DNA of 12,766 bases from Clostridia bacterium. GTDB lineage: Bacteria > Bacillota_A > Clostridia > Oscillospirales > CAG-272. The stretch's first letter is position 1. Every line of letters begins with the position of its first letter. The notes below the pieces were generated by a model, which did not search any database, was not told where the DNA came from, and saw only the letters and a list, made by a program, of their open reading frames with translations. Positions 3,121 to 12,766 of this stretch are shown in pieces. The position numbers and the translations under genes are program-made. The DNA lies in contig JAFYPS010000120.1 in the NCBI GenBank assembly GCA_017547395.1, forward strand, positions 1 through 12,766. The letters are read 5' to 3'.

Positions 3121-3579
3121 ATGTTAGTTGACAGAATTGAAAATCTTAAACTTTATATTCCCTACGACGAAAAACTCGCTACCGTTTGCGAATTTCTTGA
3201 AAAAACCGACGTTCTTTCTCTCGAAGTTGGCAAATTTGAAATTGACAACGGCATCCGCGTTATCGTTAATGCTTTTGCAGCAAAAGAGCGCGATATTGCA
3301 AAGTGGGAAACACATAACAAATATATCGATCTTCAGTATCTTATCGAAGGCAATGAGATTATGGGATGGCTTCCGATTGACCAGATGGAAGCGGCTGAAT
3401 ACAATTCAGAAAAGGACATTTCTTATCCCTCTCCTAAAGAAGGCGCAGTTCCCTCTGACGTTATTCTTGAAACCGGCAGCTTTGCTTATCTCGAGCCAAG
3501 AGATGCTCATCGCCCTTGCGTAAAGCTTACCGCCGATAATGCTAAAAAACTTATTTTCAAAATACCTGTAAAAGAATAA
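3121..3579 (+). CDS. YhcH/YjgK/YiaL family protein
   Basis: This 152-residue cupin-like protein belongs to the family once called DUF386 (YhcH/YjgK/YiaL, also listed as the beta subunit of evolved beta-galactosidase). The family signature WETHNKYIDLQYLIEG spans residues 62-77, with likely metal-site residues E63 and H65. DAHRPC (128-133) supplies H130, and the strand near K147 completes the pocket. Homologues sit in sialic-acid and other sugar catabolic operons and are thought to act on sugar anomers or related sugars. Here the gene heads an operon with trpS and a glycan-initiation gene, with no sugar catabolic gene beside it. GGAGG at 3111-3115 is 5 bases before the ATG. It is soluble, with no signal peptide. 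Family assignment is good; the reaction is unknown. Confidence 0.88.
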   Translation: MLVDRIENLKLYIPYDEKLATVCEFLEKTDVLSLEVGKFEIDNGIRVIVNAFAAKERDIAKWETHNKYIDLQYLIEGNEIMGWLPIDQMEAAEYNSEKDISYPSPKEGAVPSDVILETGSFAYLEPRDAHRPCVKLTADNAKKLIFKIPVKE

Positions 3580-3609: not shown

Positions 3610-4608
3610 ATGCTTGACGATAAGAAGGTCGTTTATTCGGGTGTTCAGCCATCAGGAAACCTTACCATTGGCAACTACCTTGGCGCAATCAAGAATTTCG
3701 CCGAGTTTTCCGAATTATACAAATGCTTTTACTGTGTAGTTGATATGCATGCAATTACCGTGCGACAGGTTCCCGCAGAACTTCGCCGTCGCACTTTTGA
3801 AACGCTTGCGCTTTACATCGCGTGCGGTCTTGACCCTAAGAAGAACACCCTTTACGTGCAGTCTCACGTTCCTGCTCATGCGGAGCTAAGCTGGGTGCTT
3901 AACTGTTACACTATGTTTGGCGAGCTTAGCCGTATGACTCAGTTTAAAGACAAGAGTGCTAAGCACGCCGACAACGTAAATGCCGGTCTTTTCACATACC
4001 CGACCCTTATGGCCGCCGATATCCTTTTGTATCAGACGGATATGGTTCCTGTTGGTATCGACCAGATGCAGCACATTGAGCTTGCCAGAGACGTTGCTAA
4101 CCGCTTTAACGGAGTTTACGGTGATACTTTTACCGTACCCGAGGGTTATATGCCAAAGAACGGCGCAAAAATAATGTCACTTGCCGAGCCTACAAAGAAA
4201 ATGTCAAAATCCGATGAGAATGCAAATGCAATAGTTTATATTCTCGACTCAAAAGATGATATTATGCGAAAATTCAAGAGAGCCGTTACCGATTCGGATA
4301 CACGCGTCGCTTTTGGAGAAGGCAAAGACGGTATAAATAACCTTATGACTATTTATTCCTGTTTTACCAAAAAAACTTTTGACGAAATCGAAAAAGAATT
4401 TGACGGTAAGGGCTATGGTGATTTCAAACTTGCCGTAGGCGAAGCATGTGCAGACGGGCTTGCTCACGTTCGTGAAGAGTTTGCTCGCATTATGGCAGAT
4501 AAAGCATATCTTGAAGAGGTTATGAAAAACGGTGCTGCCGAGGCTTCCTACTACGCCAGAAAAACACTCTCTAAGGTTAAGCGTAAGGTAGGCTTTACCT
4601 CTATCTAA
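3610..4608 (+). CDS. trpS: Tryptophan--tRNA ligase
   Basis: This cytosolic class I aminoacyl-tRNA synthetase charges tRNA-Trp using ATP. Its 332 residues match the usual bacterial length. The HIGH-type motif appears as TIGN (residues 19-22, after SGVQPSGNL), and KMSKS is at 197-201. VGIDQMQHIELARD (148-161) is the conserved region contributing to tryptophan and ATP binding. AAAGGA upstream gives a normal ribosome binding site. It starts 30 bases after the YhcH-family gene and ends 19 bases before the tagO-like gene, so it is read as part of that operon. The 30-base gap and the about 46-base operon leader leave no room for a T-box, the tRNA-sensing leader often found on synthetase genes in this phylum, so regulation by uncharged tRNA-Trp is unlikely here. 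Confidence 0.97.
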   Translation: MLDDKKVVYSGVQPSGNLTIGNYLGAIKNFAEFSELYKCFYCVVDMHAITVRQVPAELRRRTFETLALYIACGLDPKKNTLYVQSHVPAHAELSWVLNCYTMFGELSRMTQFKDKSAKHADNVNAGLFTYPTLMAADILLYQTDMVPVGIDQMQHIELARDVANRFNGVYGDTFTVPEGYMPKNGAKIMSLAEPTKKMSKSDENANAIVYILDSKDDIMRKFKRAVTDSDTRVAFGEGKDGINNLMTIYSCFTKKTFDEIEKEFDGKGYGDFKLAVGEACADGLAHVREEFARIMADKAYLEEVMKNGAAEASYYARKTLSKVKRKVGFTSI

Positions 4609-6584: not shown

Positions 6585-7073
6585 ATGCTGACTATAAGAA
6601 AAACCACACTAAGCGATCTTGATCGTGTAATGGAACTTTACGATATCGGCCGAGATTATATGCGAGCAAACGGCAATATGCTTCAGTGGATAAACGGCTA
6701 TCCCGCGCGCGATCTTGTAAAAGAAGACATTGAAAACGGCGAAAGCTACGTTGTTGTCGATGGAGACGTCATCCATGCCGTGTTTATGTTTATGCAGCGT
6801 ACCGAACCAACCTACGGATATATCGAAGACGGAGATTGGCTAAACGATCTCCCCTACGGTACCATTCACCGCATAGCAAGTGACGGCGTTCATCGCAGAA
6901 TACTTGATTTTTGCGTTGATTTTTGCCAAAAGACTATCAAAAATCTTCGTATAGACACTCACCCCGACAATATGCCTATGCAGAAAGCAATCAAGCGTTG
7001 CGGCTTCAACTATTGCGGAGTAATTTATATGGAAGACAAAACTCCAAGAATCGCCTACCAAAAAACTGAATAA
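6585..7073 (+). CDS. GNAT family acetyltransferase
   Basis: This 162-residue protein has the layout of a GNAT N-acetyltransferase, which moves an acetyl group from acetyl-CoA to an amine. The opening IRKTTLSDLDRVMELYD (4-20) is the typical first strand and helix. The acetyl-CoA region is around TIHRIASDGVHRRI (93-106), where the usual Q/R-x-x-G-x-G/A loop is degenerate. RIDTHPDNMPMQKAIKRCGF (122-141) with a following YCGVIYMED is the classical C-terminal motif. It is soluble, and the substrate cannot be predicted. It begins 3 bases after the unknown membrane-anchored gene, with no clear ribosome binding site, so translation is probably coupled. It is the last gene before the hairpin at 7075-7107. 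Confidence 0.85.
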   Translation: MLTIRKTTLSDLDRVMELYDIGRDYMRANGNMLQWINGYPARDLVKEDIENGESYVVVDGDVIHAVFMFMQRTEPTYGYIEDGDWLNDLPYGTIHRIASDGVHRRILDFCVDFCQKTIKNLRIDTHPDNMPMQKAIKRCGFNYCGVIYMEDKTPRIAYQKTE

Positions 7074-7074
7074 C

Positions 7075-7107
7075 AAAAAGCCACACATTAAATATGTGTG
7101 GCTTTTT
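7075..7107. terminator. Bidirectional intrinsic terminator between the two converging operons
   Basis: Arms AAAAAGCCACACAT (7075-7088) and ATGTGTGGCTTTTT (7094-7107) are perfect complements around the 5-base loop TAAAT. With A residues at one side and T residues at the other, it can end both the plus-strand operon and the minus-strand operon. Confidence 0.92.
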
Positions 7108-7115
7108 ATTATTCA

Positions 7116-7232: not shown

Positions 7233-8003
7233 TTATCCGAAAGATTCGCAGGCAGCGATAAGCCTTAACATATCCTTATCAACTTTTTCTCTGCCATAGG
7301 CGTCGATAAATCTGCTTGCATATTCATTTGTACCAAGGTTAAACTGAAGCGTCCATATTCCCCAGAAGATATCAATATGTCTGTCGCCTACTCCTCCGTT
7401 GTCAAGATCGATAAATCCCGAAAATCTCCAGTTGTCAAGCATTATGTTCGGCAGGCAGTAGTCACCGTGCAGCAATGTATCGTTTTGGAGATATTTTATG
7501 TTTTTTTCGACCAGTGAAAAGGCTTCTTTCGCATCGCCAAAGCCAAAGCTGCTGTCAAAAACTCCATCTTCGTGATTTGTTAAAACAGTATTTTTATATC
7601 GCTCAATCCTGTTTTGAACAGGACAATCGGAAAAATCCGTTTCGTGCAGTCCGCGAAGAAGTTCTGCAATAGTATCACATAGTTTTTCAGGCTGAAAAAG
7701 ATAAATCTTATGCGTACAATCCTCGCCTGAAAGTTTTTCGGTAAGCAGCCAATCACGGTCAAGACTGATATAATCGGCAACTCTTGTTGCAAGTCCCTTG
7801 GAGTGAAAATAACGCGTCATTTCAGCCTCGGCAAGCAAGCTTCCCTTTTTAGCAGTCTTAAGATAGTATCCACCGTCTGCGTCTATAAAATAAACACACG
7901 CCTCAGGTGAGCAACTGCTATCGTAAATTCTTGCATTTTCAAGTAGCTTACAATAACGTGACGGAAATGTATTTACGTCGGGAGTTATAAGCGTTCTTTT
8001 CAT
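7233..8003 (-). CDS. APH-fold small-molecule kinase (aminoglycoside 3'-phosphotransferase-like)
   Basis: This 256-residue cytosolic kinase transfers phosphate from ATP to a hydroxyl group of a small molecule. YLK (47-49) gives the likely ATP-binding K49, E59 is the helix-C partner, LLHGDYCLPN (177-186) is the catalytic loop with base D181 and N186, and FIDLDNGGVGDRHIDI (197-212) carries the metal-binding D199. Length and the segment LHETDFSDCP (119-128) resemble APH(3') enzymes. Its stop is followed at once by a second TAA. It is the last intact gene of the minus-strand operon and overlaps the preceding gene by 4 bases (ATGA). Homologues of the same fold phosphorylate sugars (for example N-acetylhexosamines, MurNAc or methylthioribose), and the glycosidase context makes a sugar acceptor as plausible as an antibiotic. 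Fold is certain, substrate is not. Confidence 0.88.
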   Translation of the reverse strand: MKRTLITPDVNTFPSRYCKLLENARIYDSSCSPEACVYFIDADGGYYLKTAKKGSLLAEAEMTRYFHSKGLATRVADYISLDRDWLLTEKLSGEDCTHKIYLFQPEKLCDTIAELLRGLHETDFSDCPVQNRIERYKNTVLTNHEDGVFDSSFGFGDAKEAFSLVEKNIKYLQNDTLLHGDYCLPNIMLDNWRFSGFIDLDNGGVGDRHIDIFWGIWTLQFNLGTNEYASRFIDAYGREKVDKDMLRLIAACESFG

Positions 8004-10138
8004 ATAAGCTCCGCCTTTTCAAATGCAGTTAAAACGGTTTCTTTGTCGAGAGTTGTACTGAGATAGCATTTATTCGAAACGGAAATAACAGCGTCACCGC
8101 CTATATTTTCAACGGAAAGTTTTTTTCCTCCAAGAACCGCTTCATAAACAAGGCTTTCGGCATCAAGCTTCAACTTTAATTTTGCCTCACCGCTCTTGTG
8201 CCATAACGTAACGTATGTTTTGCCGCACCGTTCAAAGCAGAAAGCTGAAACATCTTCGGGAGAATTAATTCTAACGTAAGGAACAAGCTCATATTCCCCA
8301 TTTTCATCAATAAGCAACGTATATTCCGTGTCGGGATTCTTCAGTGCTTCCTTTTGCTCATCGGTAAGCCAATTCTTTTCTCTTACGTCCTCCCAGCGGC
8401 GCATAACTTCATAAATATCAGATGTGCGCGGATTTTTTTCAACGTGTTCGAGCTTAAACTGTACAGATACAGGACAATCATAAGCCGCAGCCTTGCTTGT
8501 ACCGTATTCATAAATATCGGCCTGTGTATCATTGTCATATTTCCACCACCCGAAGTCAACGGTTGTGAAATCGCTCTTCATACGCGTTGCTTCTTCAGCG
8601 GGAAACTGTACAATCTTTTCTTTAAAAACGCTCATCGGGAAAATGTCAAAAGCATTGCCACCGCTCATCATATGCCAGCTAAAATGAGCTTTAGCCGCAC
8701 ACTGGCAAAAGATAGGTTTGTTTATAAATTTTTTGTAAACTCTGTATTGTGCAAACGGAATGTTGAATTCATACGGCGGTCTTGTGCCCTCTGAGCCGTC
8801 AAAATACACGAACTCAAAGCCACAGTTATATGCATCTGCAAGTTTTGTAGCAAGTTCGTCAGGCAGAGACGTTCTCTGGTCTGCATATATTGAGTGAGCC
8901 TCGTATTCACAAACGTCAACAACTCCGCCGATAGTACCGAGCGAATGCTCGGTTATCAAAGTGTCAAAATGACCTCTTTTGCATCCCTTAAAGCAATATG
9001 GATACTCGATGCTAAATGATTCGTACTGTATTATTTCACCGTCGAATTTAAGAACTCTGCAATCCTCTTGCATAGGAGCCCATTCAGGATTCTGTTCTAC
9101 AAAAATAACGTCATCGCTTTTCGAAATTGGTTTTGAAAGAGTATAGTATTCCTTAATACCAAGCCTATGGTCAGCAATAGGCGTAACGTATCTGCTGCGT
9201 ATTCCTACGAACGTCTGTAAAAAATGTATACCTGCCTTAATTCCCGCGGCATTAAGCTTTGCAATAACAGCCTTCAGATCTTCTGCGCCATTTGGATACG
9301 TATCTCTGTAGTCGTAATCGCCGCTATAATACCACGGACCTCTGTCAATGAAAAAAGCAGAATAATATACTAAAATCTTTTTGAATCCGCCAAGCTTTGC
9401 ATATTCAATGTGCGCATCTACGTTAGACGGATTAAGAGAAGCGGTCCATAAAGCAGATGAGTTGATATTTGAAGCTCGGCGACTCTCTACTCCACGAGGG
9501 AGATTATAATCATTTTCAAGAGCATCAATGCAGTCAAAAAGGCAATCCCTCGATGATGCTATAAGCGCGGCAACACAACCTTTAAGTTTTATACCCCGCA
9601 GTGCATCGGCACTCATAATACTGTATCCGTTTCGCTTCTCAGCGTCAATTCTTGCATGTGGGCAAGCAGCAAGGACATTTACCGCTGCGTTCTCATCCCA
9701 TATAACGTTAAGCCACTGACCAAAATTGTCTCTATTCTTGACAGGAAGCTGCAAAAGTCTGAATTCCGACACCGGCGGAACGTCCATTTTGAGCCCCTCA
9801 AACGCTTTATCCGGAACAATAAAATCAGAAAGTTTGAATGAAATATATTCGTCTTTTTCTTCGATATCAACTACCGCTTCAAAAGAAACAAGTTCAAACC
9901 CAACAATCAGTTTATTACCCTCGCGACGTACGCGGTTCGCCGAAAATACGGTTTGCTTATTAGGATATGCAAGTTTGATTTCGTTGTTAAAGGGTCTTTC
10001 TTCGGTCAGTGAGAAAAGCGGAAGCTTTTCATCTGCAAGACATTCCTCATCGGTAGACTTTAAAATAAGGCTTTGTGCTATGCAGTCTTCACCGAGCGTT
10101 AACCGAAAGTGTTTATTCTCTAAAACAACATTTCTCAT
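8000..10138 (-). CDS. Probable glycoside hydrolase with alpha-galactosidase-like barrel, substrate unknown
   Basis: The protein has 712 residues and no signal peptide, so it is cytosolic. Residues 1 to about 215 are rich in short beta strands, as in the N-terminal sandwich of clan GH-D enzymes. From about 240 a (beta/alpha)8 barrel is suggested: GGFKKILVYYSAF (250-262), a substrate-loop-like RGPWYYSGDYDYRDTYPNG (266-284), the helix AEDLKAVIAKLNAAGIKAGI (285-304) and FVYFDGSEG (443-451), whose D447 and E450 are candidate catalytic residues. FGWWKYDNDT (529-538) is another aromatic loop, and about 600-712 looks like a C-terminal beta domain. It resembles alpha-galactosidase or alpha-N-acetylgalactosaminidase-type enzymes only distantly, and I cannot name a family. 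Its ATG overlaps the stop of the PHP gene by 4 bases, and its own stop overlaps the kinase start. Confidence 0.65.
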   Translation of the reverse strand: MRNVVLENKHFRLTLGEDCIAQSLILKSTDEECLADEKLPLFSLTEERPFNNEIKLAYPNKQTVFSANRVRREGNKLIVGFELVSFEAVVDIEEKDEYISFKLSDFIVPDKAFEGLKMDVPPVSEFRLLQLPVKNRDNFGQWLNVIWDENAAVNVLAACPHARIDAEKRNGYSIMSADALRGIKLKGCVAALIASSRDCLFDCIDALENDYNLPRGVESRRASNINSSALWTASLNPSNVDAHIEYAKLGGFKKILVYYSAFFIDRGPWYYSGDYDYRDTYPNGAEDLKAVIAKLNAAGIKAGIHFLQTFVGIRSRYVTPIADHRLGIKEYYTLSKPISKSDDVIFVEQNPEWAPMQEDCRVLKFDGEIIQYESFSIEYPYCFKGCKRGHFDTLITEHSLGTIGGVVDVCEYEAHSIYADQRTSLPDELATKLADAYNCGFEFVYFDGSEGTRPPYEFNIPFAQYRVYKKFINKPIFCQCAAKAHFSWHMMSGGNAFDIFPMSVFKEKIVQFPAEEATRMKSDFTTVDFGWWKYDNDTQADIYEYGTSKAAAYDCPVSVQFKLEHVEKNPRTSDIYEVMRRWEDVREKNWLTDEQKEALKNPDTEYTLLIDENGEYELVPYVRINSPEDVSAFCFERCGKTYVTLWHKSGEAKLKLKLDAESLVYEAVLGGKKLSVENIGGDAVISVSNKCYLSTTLDKETVLTAFEKAELI

Positions 10139-11547
10139 ATCTGTCTGGTTACCGTGTCTGAATCAATAGAGCTTCCCTTTGTAATAGGACCTTCATTGAT
10201 ATGGATCTCGCGCCACTTGTTTTCAAATTCAAGTATATTTTTATCGGGAAGTACAGGCTCTGCCGCGCCGAAGAAACGGTCTGCAAAGCTGTTTGTCATC
10301 TTTGCCTCAAGTTCTACAAGTTCTGCAGGTGCTTCTCCTATAGCAAAGGCTCTCATAGCATAGCCCTCTCCCTGACACATACGCTGACGAAGTGGGAAAT
10401 AGTACTTAAGAAGGAAGTGAGCATATGAAACAAGACGGTAACTTCCGTACGCACGGTACTGTCTGTCGTACTCGTATCCGGTTGATTCTACCGCTACGCT
10501 CATAGAAGACTTTACAGCTTCAACTATAGCATCGTTAGAGTTGTCCTTTGCAAAAGCAATTGTGAAATAGTTCGGGAAGGTTTTAGCGTTCTCTATACCA
10601 TGTACGTCACTCGAACCTACTACCGATATTTTAACGCCTTCAGCACGAAGATCGTTCCACATTGCAACCGAGCAGTTATTATCCGGTACCTTCATACCGC
10701 CGATAAGCTCATATGCATCAAACATTCCGCTCGAAAGCAAGATTCTCGCGAACTCAGAGTCAACATTGTATGCCACACCGAAGCTTGGTCTCCAGAATGG
10801 GTGTGGGAATATAGCAATGCCGCCCGCCTCATGAATCTTGCCGGTTGACCACATTGCCATCGCATAACGTTCTTTGTACTCTTCGGGTACGTTGCTCGGA
10901 ACTTCTTCAAGAAGTGCGGACACCTCAAGCTCATACTGTTCGCGATTCTTTATATACTGCTCTGTTACACTGTGTTTTCCGCCAACGTGCACGATATGTA
11001 CAGGACTATGAGGAGTATGTACCTCTTCACCCAAAATACGTTTGAATCCGCACGTTATTCCCTGATAAACCTCATCAATCTCGCCGCCCGGATAATAACG
11101 GTTATGGTCGGTAAGTGCGAAAAAGTCGTAACCCTGTTCACGGTAATGTCCTGCAAGCGCAGCGGGATCGCGTTTTCCGTCCGAACGATATGAATGCGAA
11201 TGCAAATCGCCTCTGAGCGGACGAAGTGCATAAAGGTCCTCGTCAAGCGCATATACGAACATCTCCTGCAAAGACTTTTCATCATATATGATACGAATTA
11301 CATATTCCTGCTCTTTTTTAAAAGTGTATGAGAAACGAAGTACTCCATCCTTCGCATTAGTGTAAAGCTTATCAGAAACAGGCTTATAATAGTCATTATT
11401 ACTATTTACAGCGATTATTCGCAACTTATACTCGACACCCTCGAAAAACGCAAACGCGCGTTCGGACGGTGTAATAACGAATTCGGTTTCTTTGCCTACG
11501 CAAGCAACTGCCGGCCAAATATTGTAGTTTTTAGGTGTTGGTAACAT
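10135..11547 (-). CDS. PHP-domain metallohydrolase (CehA/McbA-like)
   Basis: This 470-residue protein has no signal peptide. Residues 1 to about 108 form a beta-rich N-terminal domain. The PHP (polymerase and histidinol phosphatase) metal site follows: GDLHSHSYRSDG (113-124; H116, H118, D123), LTDHNRYY (145-152; H148), GEEVHTPH (173-180; E175 and H177), FPHPF (247-251; H249) and SSDVHG (312-317; D314, H316). These residues bind two or three divalent metals and hydrolyse phosphoesters or, in CehA-like members, other esters. About 115 residues after the barrel match nothing I know. AGGAG at 11557-11561 lies 9 bases from the ATG. It starts 16 bases after the EEP-fold gene and overlaps the next gene by 4 bases. 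Metal-dependent hydrolase is secure; its substrate is open. Confidence 0.88.
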   Translation of the reverse strand: MLPTPKNYNIWPAVACVGKETEFVITPSERAFAFFEGVEYKLRIIAVNSNNDYYKPVSDKLYTNAKDGVLRFSYTFKKEQEYVIRIIYDEKSLQEMFVYALDEDLYALRPLRGDLHSHSYRSDGKRDPAALAGHYREQGYDFFALTDHNRYYPGGEIDEVYQGITCGFKRILGEEVHTPHSPVHIVHVGGKHSVTEQYIKNREQYELEVSALLEEVPSNVPEEYKERYAMAMWSTGKIHEAGGIAIFPHPFWRPSFGVAYNVDSEFARILLSSGMFDAYELIGGMKVPDNNCSVAMWNDLRAEGVKISVVGSSDVHGIENAKTFPNYFTIAFAKDNSNDAIVEAVKSSMSVAVESTGYEYDRQYRAYGSYRLVSYAHFLLKYYFPLRQRMCQGEGYAMRAFAIGEAPAELVELEAKMTNSFADRFFGAAEPVLPDKNILEFENKWREIHINEGPITKGSSIDSDTVTRQI

Positions 11548-11563
11548 TGTTTAATTCTCCTTA

Positions 11564-12268
11564 TCAAATCTCTATTTCCGCAAAGTATGGATAATGATCA
11601 GACGTAGTGTTTTCTATAGTTCCGCAAGATAATGTTTTTATATCTTTCGAAGTGAAGATATAATCGAGCTTCATTGTAGGATTGTCAGACGGAAACGATA
11701 CGTTACTCTTGTCCGAAGTTATAGCCGTGTCGTTCAGCACCTCTTTTATAGGTAGCAAGAATTCGTTGTCAGGCATTACGTTGAGGTCTCCCATAAAGAT
11801 CGTTTTGCTACCATCCAAGTTATCAAGCAATGCCTTCACAGCATTTTTCTTTTCAGCATTGGCAAGTCCAAAATGTGTAACGTATACCGTTATAACTTCT
11901 CCGACGTCAATTCTCGCTTTTATGATACACCGTGTTTCATAGTATGCCTTTTCATCCTTTACCACGGGATCCTCTACCATAATTCTTTCCGCACTAAGTA
12001 TCGGGTACCTTGAAATCAGCGCATTGCCGTAAAAACTACCGTTTAAAAACAAAGCGGGACAAAAATAGCAGTAGTCATATCCGAGTTCCCTGCATATTTC
12101 TACGGTCTGTGCGCTAAATTCACCGCCCGCACCGTGGACCTCATTGAGTCCGATAATATCCGGATTCTCTTTTTTCAGCACCGATGCGGCAAGAATAGGA
12201 TTTATATTTTTAATATTCTTATACTCGCGGCATGACATTATATTATATGTGATAACTTTGAATTGCAC
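11564..12268 (-). CDS. Endonuclease/exonuclease/phosphatase (EEP) fold hydrolase
   Basis: The protein has 234 residues and a complete EEP active site: TYNI (7-10; N9), LNEV (41-44; metal-binding E43), YGNALISRYP (80-89), THFGL (131-135; H132), MGDLNVMPDN (159-168; D161, N163), LDYIF (201-205; D202) and SDH (223-225; D224 with catalytic H225). The fold cleaves phosphodiester or phosphomonoester bonds in nucleic acids, sphingomyelin or inositol phosphates. There is no signal peptide, so it acts in the cytosol. I chose the GTG at 12268 because AGAGAGG (12276-12282, minus strand) lies 7 bases away; the TTG at 12274 is too close to that site. It nearly touches the GH3 gene and is followed by the PHP gene after 16 bases. 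A small-molecule phosphoesterase role is inferred from the glycosidase context; a DNA repair nuclease is less likely. Confidence 0.87.
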   Translation of the reverse strand: MQFKVITYNIMSCREYKNIKNINPILAASVLKKENPDIIGLNEVHGAGGEFSAQTVEICRELGYDYCYFCPALFLNGSFYGNALISRYPILSAERIMVEDPVVKDEKAYYETRCIIKARIDVGEVITVYVTHFGLANAEKKNAVKALLDNLDGSKTIFMGDLNVMPDNEFLLPIKEVLNDTAITSDKSNVSFPSDNPTMKLDYIFTSKDIKTLSCGTIENTTSDHYPYFAEIEI

Positions 12269-12270
12269 GG

Positions 12271-12766
12271 TCAAACCTCTCTTTCAAAAAAGCCTTTAAG
12301 CCCTACAGGGTTCTTTGCAGTAGTTTCTATTTCGCCAAGCAAAGCCTTGGCAACGGCTTTTTGCGTGCTTGCAGCACAACCGAATGCATTTACATAAGTC
12401 TTCATAAACGGAACTTCATATATTTTATACGGGTCGCCGAAAGACGTGAAAATCACGCACGGATGATCAAGTATATAAGCGCGCCAAAAAGCAAATATTT
12501 GTTTCCAGCCAAGACGAAGACTTCCGCCAAGGTAATTGTCGGGGCACACAAGACAATTTATGAGAATTGCATCGTAATCATCTTTCATAGTTTTTATCTT
12601 GTAATGTCCGGGATTTACAAGCACGTCGGTTTCGTATCCGCGTTTTTGAAGTTCGTCTGCAAGAACTTCAAAATCATTTGTGGTGTCGCTTGTTTCTTTC
12701 TTAAGATTTAAAAAAAGAAACATTTCATTTTCCTTAAGATTAATCGGAATAAGACTTTCATAGTTG
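12271..12766 (-). CDS. Glycoside hydrolase family 3 protein, C-terminal domain (5' end outside window)
   Basis: The frame is open to the right edge, giving 164 complete codons. The reading starts NYESLIPINLKENEMFLFLN, typical of the linker into the C-terminal GH3 domain, in which a 'D-x-x-x-L-L-P-L' stretch precedes the first strand. It then runs through an alternating beta/alpha domain to VIFTSFGDPYKIYEVP, YVNAFGCAASTQKAVAKALLGEI and NPVGLKGFF, closely resembling the end of NagZ/YbbD-type beta-N-acetylhexosaminidases. The catalytic barrel, with its nucleophile Asp, lies beyond the edge, so activity and any signal peptide cannot be judged. The ATG at 12723 is internal and not a start. It is the first gene seen of the minus-strand operon; its stop lies 2 bases before the EEP start codon. 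Confidence 0.8.
   Translation of the reverse strand, partial: NYESLIPINLKENEMFLFLNLKKETSDTTNDFEVLADELQKRGYETDVLVNPGHYKIKTMKDDYDAILINCLVCPDNYLGGSLRLGWKQIFAFWRAYILDHPCVIFTSFGDPYKIYEVPFMKTYVNAFGCAASTQKAVAKALLGEIETTAKNPVGLKGFFEREV
12276..12282 (-). promoter_or_regulatory. Ribosome binding site that decides the EEP gene start
   Basis: AGAGAGG on the minus strand lies inside the last codons of the GH3 gene, 7 bases from the GTG at 12268 and only 1 base from the TTG at 12274. The spacing supports the GTG. Confidence 0.6.

Follow-up and report, generated by a model that had tools for sequence, protein, structure and literature searches.

Phosphate-bearing glycans are found in the gut as bacterial wall polymers, yeast phosphomannan and glycerophospho-glycolipids, and to our knowledge few bacterial routes that handle them have been defined. 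The closest described relatives of the enzymes considered here are GH36 glycosidases of clan GH-D; GH3 enzymes of the BglP/BglX and NagZ/Nag3 types, among which the criterion for a phosphorylase is a His/Asp acid-base dyad (PMC8950772); PHP-domain phosphoesterases together with the metallohydrolases CehA and McbA, which are carbaryl hydrolases (PMC9148518); and the APH(3') aminoglycoside phosphotransferases. Here we analyze contig JAFYPS010000120.1 of a Clostridia bacterium (assembly GCA_017547395.1), a stretch of 12,766 nucleotides that we refer to as the window, in which genes with likeness to all of these families, and one for an EEP-fold hydrolase, form an operon that may serve glycan catabolism. 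Its most solid new element is a large uncharacterized family of GH36-fold proteins, represented in the window by a protein of 712 amino acids (aa). In those portions of the literature open to us, largely outside subscription journals, we recognized no paper on this gene set, the 712-aa family or the parts of the proposed pathway.

Results

Read on the minus strand from position 12765 to 7233, the window encodes, in order of transcription, the C-terminal part of a GH3 enzyme, two hydrolases (EEP, then PHP), the 712-aa protein and an APH-fold kinase (Table 1), with spacings from GH3 to kinase of 2, 16, −4 and −4 bases. A GTG at 12268 that sits behind a GAGAGG-like site is the likeliest start of the EEP gene, which gives the 2-base gap to GH3 and fits the 234-aa length under which the same protein is recorded in the protein database. 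Tight co-directional packing and a hairpin beyond the kinase support an operon; among the terminator-like sites of the window (9, as against 5.3 in shuffled sequence), only the one at 7114–7068 stands out, by its stem length. GC content runs between 0.37 and 0.45 in 1-kb steps and shows no break at the five genes. We tentatively favor a catabolic, probably cytosolic, operon for a small phosphate-bearing glycoside, a reading that could well be correct, because a similar mix of functions recurs elsewhere and because PHP genes are enriched beside genes for the 712-aa family, the EEP hydrolase and the kinase.

The recurrence is seen in several loci (numbered with the prefix L). In L039, from Clostridia bacterium RGIG8739, a GDPD, a PHP protein, three members of the 712-aa family, a fructokinase-like PfkB protein and a dehydrogenase of the zinc alcohol/polyol type follow one another at spacings of −4, 8, 33, 43, 2 and 1 bases. 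Like the window, this locus joins a phosphodiesterase, a PHP protein, the 712-aa family and a sugar kinase in one tight operon; it differs in having GDPD for EEP, another PHP subfamily, PfkB for the APH-fold kinase and three tandem 712-aa genes, and no GH3 was found in it. L396 combines a metallophosphoesterase, a GH2 enzyme and a PHP protein 57% identical to that of the window, while L291 carries HAD, PHP, GDPD, GNAT (read from the sequence), a second PHP, glycerate kinase, an orthologue of the window kinase, EEP and a GH5-like gene. The kinase and EEP likewise share L308 with MBL-like (again read from the sequence), HAD and GDPD genes and a gene lacking a Pfam match; in L210, an S-layer-domain gene and a gene without a Pfam match precede GH36, GH3, EEP and metallophosphoesterase genes.

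Enrichment was measured with a PHP profile for which the retrieved loci supplied 9 different seed sequences, comparing close co-directional neighbors with the other genes of the same loci. PHP genes made up 2/118 neighbors of 712-aa genes against 0/767 other genes, 4/62 against 2/269 for the kinase and 3/82 against 2/405 for EEP; pooled, the figures were 9/262 against 4/1441 (odds ratio 12.8, about 12-fold, p = 1.7e-5), a value to be read with the facts that PHP was chosen after L291, L050 and L039 had been seen, that only co-directional neighbors were counted, that the gene calls contain shadow open reading frames (ORFs) and that the loci are not independent. Further PHP genes also stood beside the large PHP gene of the window type (2/45 against 0/172). 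A count by Pfam family gave 5 PHP and 3 GDPD among 132 proteins in kinase chains, whereas a control set of 131 proteins drawn from those loci contained each at most once.

The family of the 712-aa protein comprises at least 1,770 proteins (E <= 0.001 among 7,993 scored, of which the best 120 were listed). The window member has no Pfam or NCBIfam match, and its AlphaFold2 (AF2) model, at a predicted local distance difference test score (pLDDT) of 88.6, shows a β-sandwich, a TIM barrel and a C-terminal β domain in an arrangement like that of GH36, GH31, GH101 and GH13. The likeness of the predicted fold to GH36, represented by a Flavonifractor plautii galactosaminidase (9ayu/8x1b), and to GH101/GH31 does not extend to the sequence: no match to PF02065 (Melibiase) was found, profile-profile comparison of the family with four GH36 proteins gave a probability of 3.9%, and at barrel strand 4, which ends at Asp447, the family reads DGSEG where the four GH36 proteins share a K-x-D-x-N nucleophile motif. 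Membership of GH36 was dropped once the profile comparison had failed. Searches of PDB sequences with the protein and with its profile each returned one weak, short match (E 0.0012 and 0.16), which we take as chance, and no relatives were found in the viral contigs searched. The family also occurs in tandem, with three copies at 3732–10326 of L039, between the GDPD-PHP and PfkB-dehydrogenase pairs, and two copies in L072.

One position sets the window protein apart from most of its family. Where the window has Gln479-Cys480, 182 of the 195 sequences counted (4 of 199 did not match the pattern) have Glu-Gly and 5 have Glu-Ala; the 8 without Glu479, the window included, carry Ala (4), Gln (2), Ser (1) or Ile (1). 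The Gln-Cys pair is common to P0002, a relative 77% identical to the window protein. We considered Glu479 as the catalytic acid, and a protein with Gln479 therefore as a dead enzyme, and did not accept this: since 8 of 195 sequences lack Glu479 and Asp498 is invariant in 20 aligned members, Asp498 is an equal candidate for the acid/base. An acid/base or substrate-binding residue may have changed at position 479 in the lineage of the window.

The EEP hydrolase retains N11, E45, D163, N165, D226 and H227 in 60–61 aligned orthologues, the Asn, Glu, Asp/Asn and Asp-His residues expected of the EEP family. The PHP protein likewise keeps H116, H118, D147, H148, E175, H184, H249, D314 and H316 in aligned orthologues, and H179, D181, N186 and D199 are conserved in those of the kinase; in all three enzymes these are residues expected at the active site. 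The predicted PHP protein matches best the two-domain structure 3e38, and its best fold matches are annotated as phosphoesterases or nucleases. It shares the PHP fold and metal-ligand set with 3e38, RNase AM, 2yb1 and CehA/McbA, but scores below the cut-offs of PF02811 (22.8 against 26.4 bits) and of its best NCBIfam match, the CehA/McbA metallohydrolase model NF038032 (70.6 against 80 bits), and its extra domain is N-terminal and Ig-like. In L208 (367–7957), PHP, EEP and metallophosphoesterase genes are chained with glycosyltransferase genes, one of them a fused glycosyltransferase/pyruvyltransferase, a context that would rather point to synthesis or remodeling of a phosphoglycan.

At the end of the operon, the kinase shares the PF01636 fold and the HGDxCLPN and FIDLDN stretches with APH(3') enzymes, and it might be a chromosomal aminoglycoside phosphotransferase that merely follows a sugar operon and lies outside its pathway. 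At E <= 1e-5 it matches 8 PDB sequences, every one an aminoglycoside phosphotransferase and 7 bearing the name 3'-phosphotransferase, and the APH(3') model NF033068 is matched at 128.3 bits. That score is under the NCBI cut-off of 205 bits, however, and orthologues 43–61% identical occur in 25 of the 118 genomes of one Clostridia family, in mixed and partly metabolic chains, a few of which include a glycerate kinase, GDPD or GH5-like gene; we regard this reading of the kinase as quite improbable.

Only the C-terminal 164 aa of the GH3 enzyme lie in the window, outside the PF00933 catalytic domain, and this tail alone has no Pfam match. Across 168 aligned columns it shares 50% identity with the C-terminal end of the 534-aa GH3 of L210, which matches PF00933 at 189.7 bits and finds its best PDB sequence match in the β-glucoside phosphorylase BglX (5vqd, E 4e-63). 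The L210 relative also carries a KHFPGxG...H stretch, a likeness to BglP/BglX and NagZ/Nag3-type enzymes; the catalytic domain of the window enzyme itself falls beyond the window. The L210 protein has Asn before the catalytic His, where NagZ has Asp.

The original prediction, made from the sequence of the window, had proposed five minus-strand genes with gaps of 2 and 16 bases and two 4-base overlaps, which the ORFs and the EEP start bear out. Its EEP and APH-fold assignments likewise agree with the Pfam scores (PF03372, 68 bits against a cut-off of 24.5; PF01636, 91.4 bits against 23.2). The description of the 712-aa protein as α-galactosidase-like stands for the fold and fails for the sequence, and of the "two unrelated phosphoesterases" the EEP member holds as a family assignment, while the PHP member is in part doubtful, CehA/McbA being its best, sub-cut-off NCBIfam match.

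The PHP protein might instead hydrolyze an ester or a carbamate, and an operon for glycan catabolism without phosphate can be drawn up in which GH3 and the 712-aa protein cut the chain, PHP acts as a CehA/McbA-like esterase on acyl or carbamoyl groups, EEP is loosely associated and the kinase primes the sugar. The NF038032 match agrees with such a scheme, as do the neighbors of PHP relatives (n = 62), which include 5 MFS, 3 solute-binding and 2 GDSL proteins, and those of the 712-aa family (96 of 170), among which fucosidase, GHL6 and GH42-type proteins lead (8–9) and PHP counts 2; these glycosidase-type neighbors, and the sugar-acid enzymes also present, agree with the favored reading as well. 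Yet in L204, L208, L209, L210 and L291 EEP adjoins, or shares a chain with, a gene of the PHP, GDPD or metallophosphoesterase type, GDPD and PHP stand beside the 712-aa family in L039, and the best folds matched by PHP are those of phosphoesterases or nucleases. On this evidence we find the phosphate-free scheme doubtful and retain the phosphorylated glycoside as the favored substrate.

Conservation of the operon was followed in 34 PHP loci (19 + 15, a subset of the PHP matches), in 51 of 84 EEP matches, in 28 of 33 kinase matches at >= 43% identity and, for the 712-aa family, in the best 80 of the 169 loci that were confirmed in genomes; searches of the loci were repeated by tblastn, the longest-ORF-first gene caller hiding real genes under shadow ORFs. 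Pairs were recovered. The kinase and EEP are together in G411 (L291; 59% and 41% identical) and in G416 (L308; 54%, with a distant EEP at 22%), GH3 and EEP in G109 (L210) and, as a weak case with a distant GH3, in G427 (L329), and GH36 neighbors EEP in L210 and L316. In addition, P0002 (712-aa family, 77%) and P0121 (PHP, 89%) both lie on contigs of 6,781 bases in the ncbi set, and P0244 (EEP, 78%) and P0123 (PHP, 82%) both on contigs of 3,203 bases in the lgn set. These equal sizes, the only two besides the window's own contig among the top 12 of the 120 rows listed for each protein, suggest PHP–712-aa and EEP–PHP pairs in close relatives; equal sizes involving lower-ranked rows (4131 and 8327 bases) were taken as chance.

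Several observations weigh against the favored reading. No locus among the 80, 34, 51 and 28 examined held three or more of the five families. The flanks of the 80 712-aa loci yielded no relatives of the window PHP, kinase or GH3, and at E <= 1e-4 EEP-like matches in only L049 (24% identical, adjoining but oppositely oriented) and L063 (22%, at a distance of several genes), neither of which was recovered by the stricter tblastn search; a PHP gene adjoins a 712-aa gene in just 2 of the 80, and there belongs to another subfamily. The 34 PHP loci contained no EEP or kinase relatives, their weak matches being a 712-aa-like gene in L132 (very weak, other strand), GH36-like genes (L398 and L405), a HAD gene (L401) and a distant GH3 (L407). 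Neighborhoods are disparate: most neighbors of the 712-aa family are other than PHP; those of EEP (101 of 105 chosen) include 4 GcpE, 4 tRNA ligase, 3 PHP and 2 each of GH3, GH36 and metallophosphoesterase genes, so that some EEP relatives adjoin housekeeping genes; and kinase chains are very mixed, with GNAT, peptidase C26, GH32 and methyltransferase genes. PHP relatives 51–53% identical lie downstream of DapH-like and DapA-like genes in L398 (about 8052–11084) and of a 230-aa gene and a DapA-like gene in L399 (about 7759–10871), contexts at odds with a sugar pathway. The parallel operons were selected post hoc from non-independent loci, and no transporter is visible in the window, which ends inside GH3. 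The EEP relative P0243 (83%) lies on a 19,313-base contig for which none of the 120 listed PHP entries has the same size; this last point carries little weight, since members can be hidden by clustering, and even the PHP of the window is absent from those listed. As the neighbors of the kinase, EEP, PHP and 712-aa genes are mostly mixed or other, the link between the families is loose.

An alternative explanation is that unrelated salvage genes have come by chance under one promoter in genomes whose gene order is fluid. The absence of any examined locus with three of the five families, the heterogeneous neighbors of the kinase and the unrelated contexts of EEP and PHP relatives all speak for it. 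So does a gap in identity: PHP relatives are listed from 86 down to 68% (P0122–P0126), but none of the listed 712-aa matches falls between 77% and 61%, and the 712-aa gene may therefore have joined recently. Against chance stand the enrichment of PHP beside three families, the separate operons of similar mix in L039, L396 and L291, and the two pairs of equal-size contigs, and we consider a fortuitous assembly unlikely. The phosphorylated-glycoside route put forward in the original prediction finds comparative support as a functional theme and not as a conserved five-gene unit. It had looked to co-occurrence of the families in Clostridia, which appears for the kinase–EEP and GH3–EEP pairs and not, in the loci examined, for the full set; and it had named scattered genes that are never neighbors as the contrary outcome, which describes the five-gene set and not the pairs.

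Two genome-wide signals were tried and put aside. The small PHP subfamily of L291, considered as a marker of the pathway, is present in 44 of the 118 family genomes (E <= 1e-25). Two genomes have it on one contig with a match to the kinase or to EEP (adjacent in G411, about 7.5 kb away in G369), and no contig carries it together with a 712-aa match. Co-occurrence of the 712-aa family and EEP (7/8 against 39/118 genomes, p = 0.0017) was left out of the argument, genome size being a possible confounder; the corresponding comparisons for the 712-aa–kinase pair (3/8 against 28/118, p = 0.29) and the EEP–kinase pair (12 genomes, p = 0.15) were not significant.

Table 1. Features of the five-gene operon and its 3' flank in the window.
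Feature	Position	Strand	Basis or remark
GH3 enzyme, C-terminal 164 aa	12271..12766 (ORF 12271-12765)	-	gene runs past window end
EEP-fold metal-dependent hydrolase, GTG start, 234 aa	11564..12268 (longest ORF 11564-12274)	-	PF03372; start read from sequence
PHP-domain hydrolase, N-terminal Ig-like domain, 470 aa	10135..11547	-	ORF, fold, metal-ligand set
712-aa glycosidase-like protein without family model	8000..10138	-	ORF, AF2 fold
APH(3')-like small-molecule kinase, 256 aa	7233..8003	-	PF01636; NF033068 below cut-off
Terminator-like hairpin 3' of kinase, common to convergent plus-strand gene	7068..7114	-	20-pair stem and T tract

Elsewhere the window encodes a polysaccharide deacetylase domain protein (945–1874) whose sequence shows a hydrophobic stretch at the N-terminus, a LuxS-type S-ribosylhomocysteine lyase of 142 aa (1915–2343) that is shorter than its matched models (153–171 positions), and, directly upstream of trpS, a YhcH/YjgK/YiaL family gene (3121–3579) whose match to the N-acetylneuraminate anomerase model stays under the cut-off. 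A search for TrpS of the window in 65 genomes, of which 30 carry the 712-aa family, gave a match in 49. The best matches, 79–83% identical, come from five of those carriers, as full-length proteins in G019, G023 and G026 and as fragments in G017 and G028; their records name two Clostridia metagenome-assembled genomes from water-deer rectum (RGIG), two Oscillospiraceae (SIG) and one Ruminococcus (RUG). Judged by these TrpS matches, the window is placed near gut Clostridia.

Discussion

From the gene order, the families and the recurring mix we infer a substrate class, an order of steps, a location, a catabolic direction and a kinase substrate. A small phosphate-bearing glycoside would enter through transporters encoded outside the window; GH3 and the 712-aa GH36-fold enzyme would take off sugars by hydrolysis, GH3 perhaps by phosphorolysis if it resembles 5vqd; EEP would open a phosphodiester or remove phosphate; and PHP would strip the resulting compound of phosphate, or of an ester. 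The APH-fold kinase might then rephosphorylate the released sugar, or a freed polyol, for entry into central metabolism. All of this would probably take place in the cytosol, to judge only from the lack, by eye, of an obvious signal sequence.

A broader proposal is more speculative, and as a whole we think it rather unlikely to hold: that gut Clostridia possess an unnamed route for phosphodiester-linked glycosides, such as glycosyl-polyol phosphates, assembled from interchangeable modules. EEP, GDPD or a metallophosphoesterase would supply the phosphodiesterase, to be joined by a phosphatase of the PHP type, a glycosidase of the new GH36-fold family and a sugar or polyol kinase, with the change from a mostly conserved Glu479 to Gln in the lineage of the window perhaps altering the chemistry or substrate of the 712-aa enzyme. 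Were this modular reading true, L039, L291, L396 and the window would offer concrete sets of enzymes for testing. The 712-aa family, with its at least 1,770 proteins and a window member that no Pfam or NCBIfam model matches, is worth characterizing in its own right.

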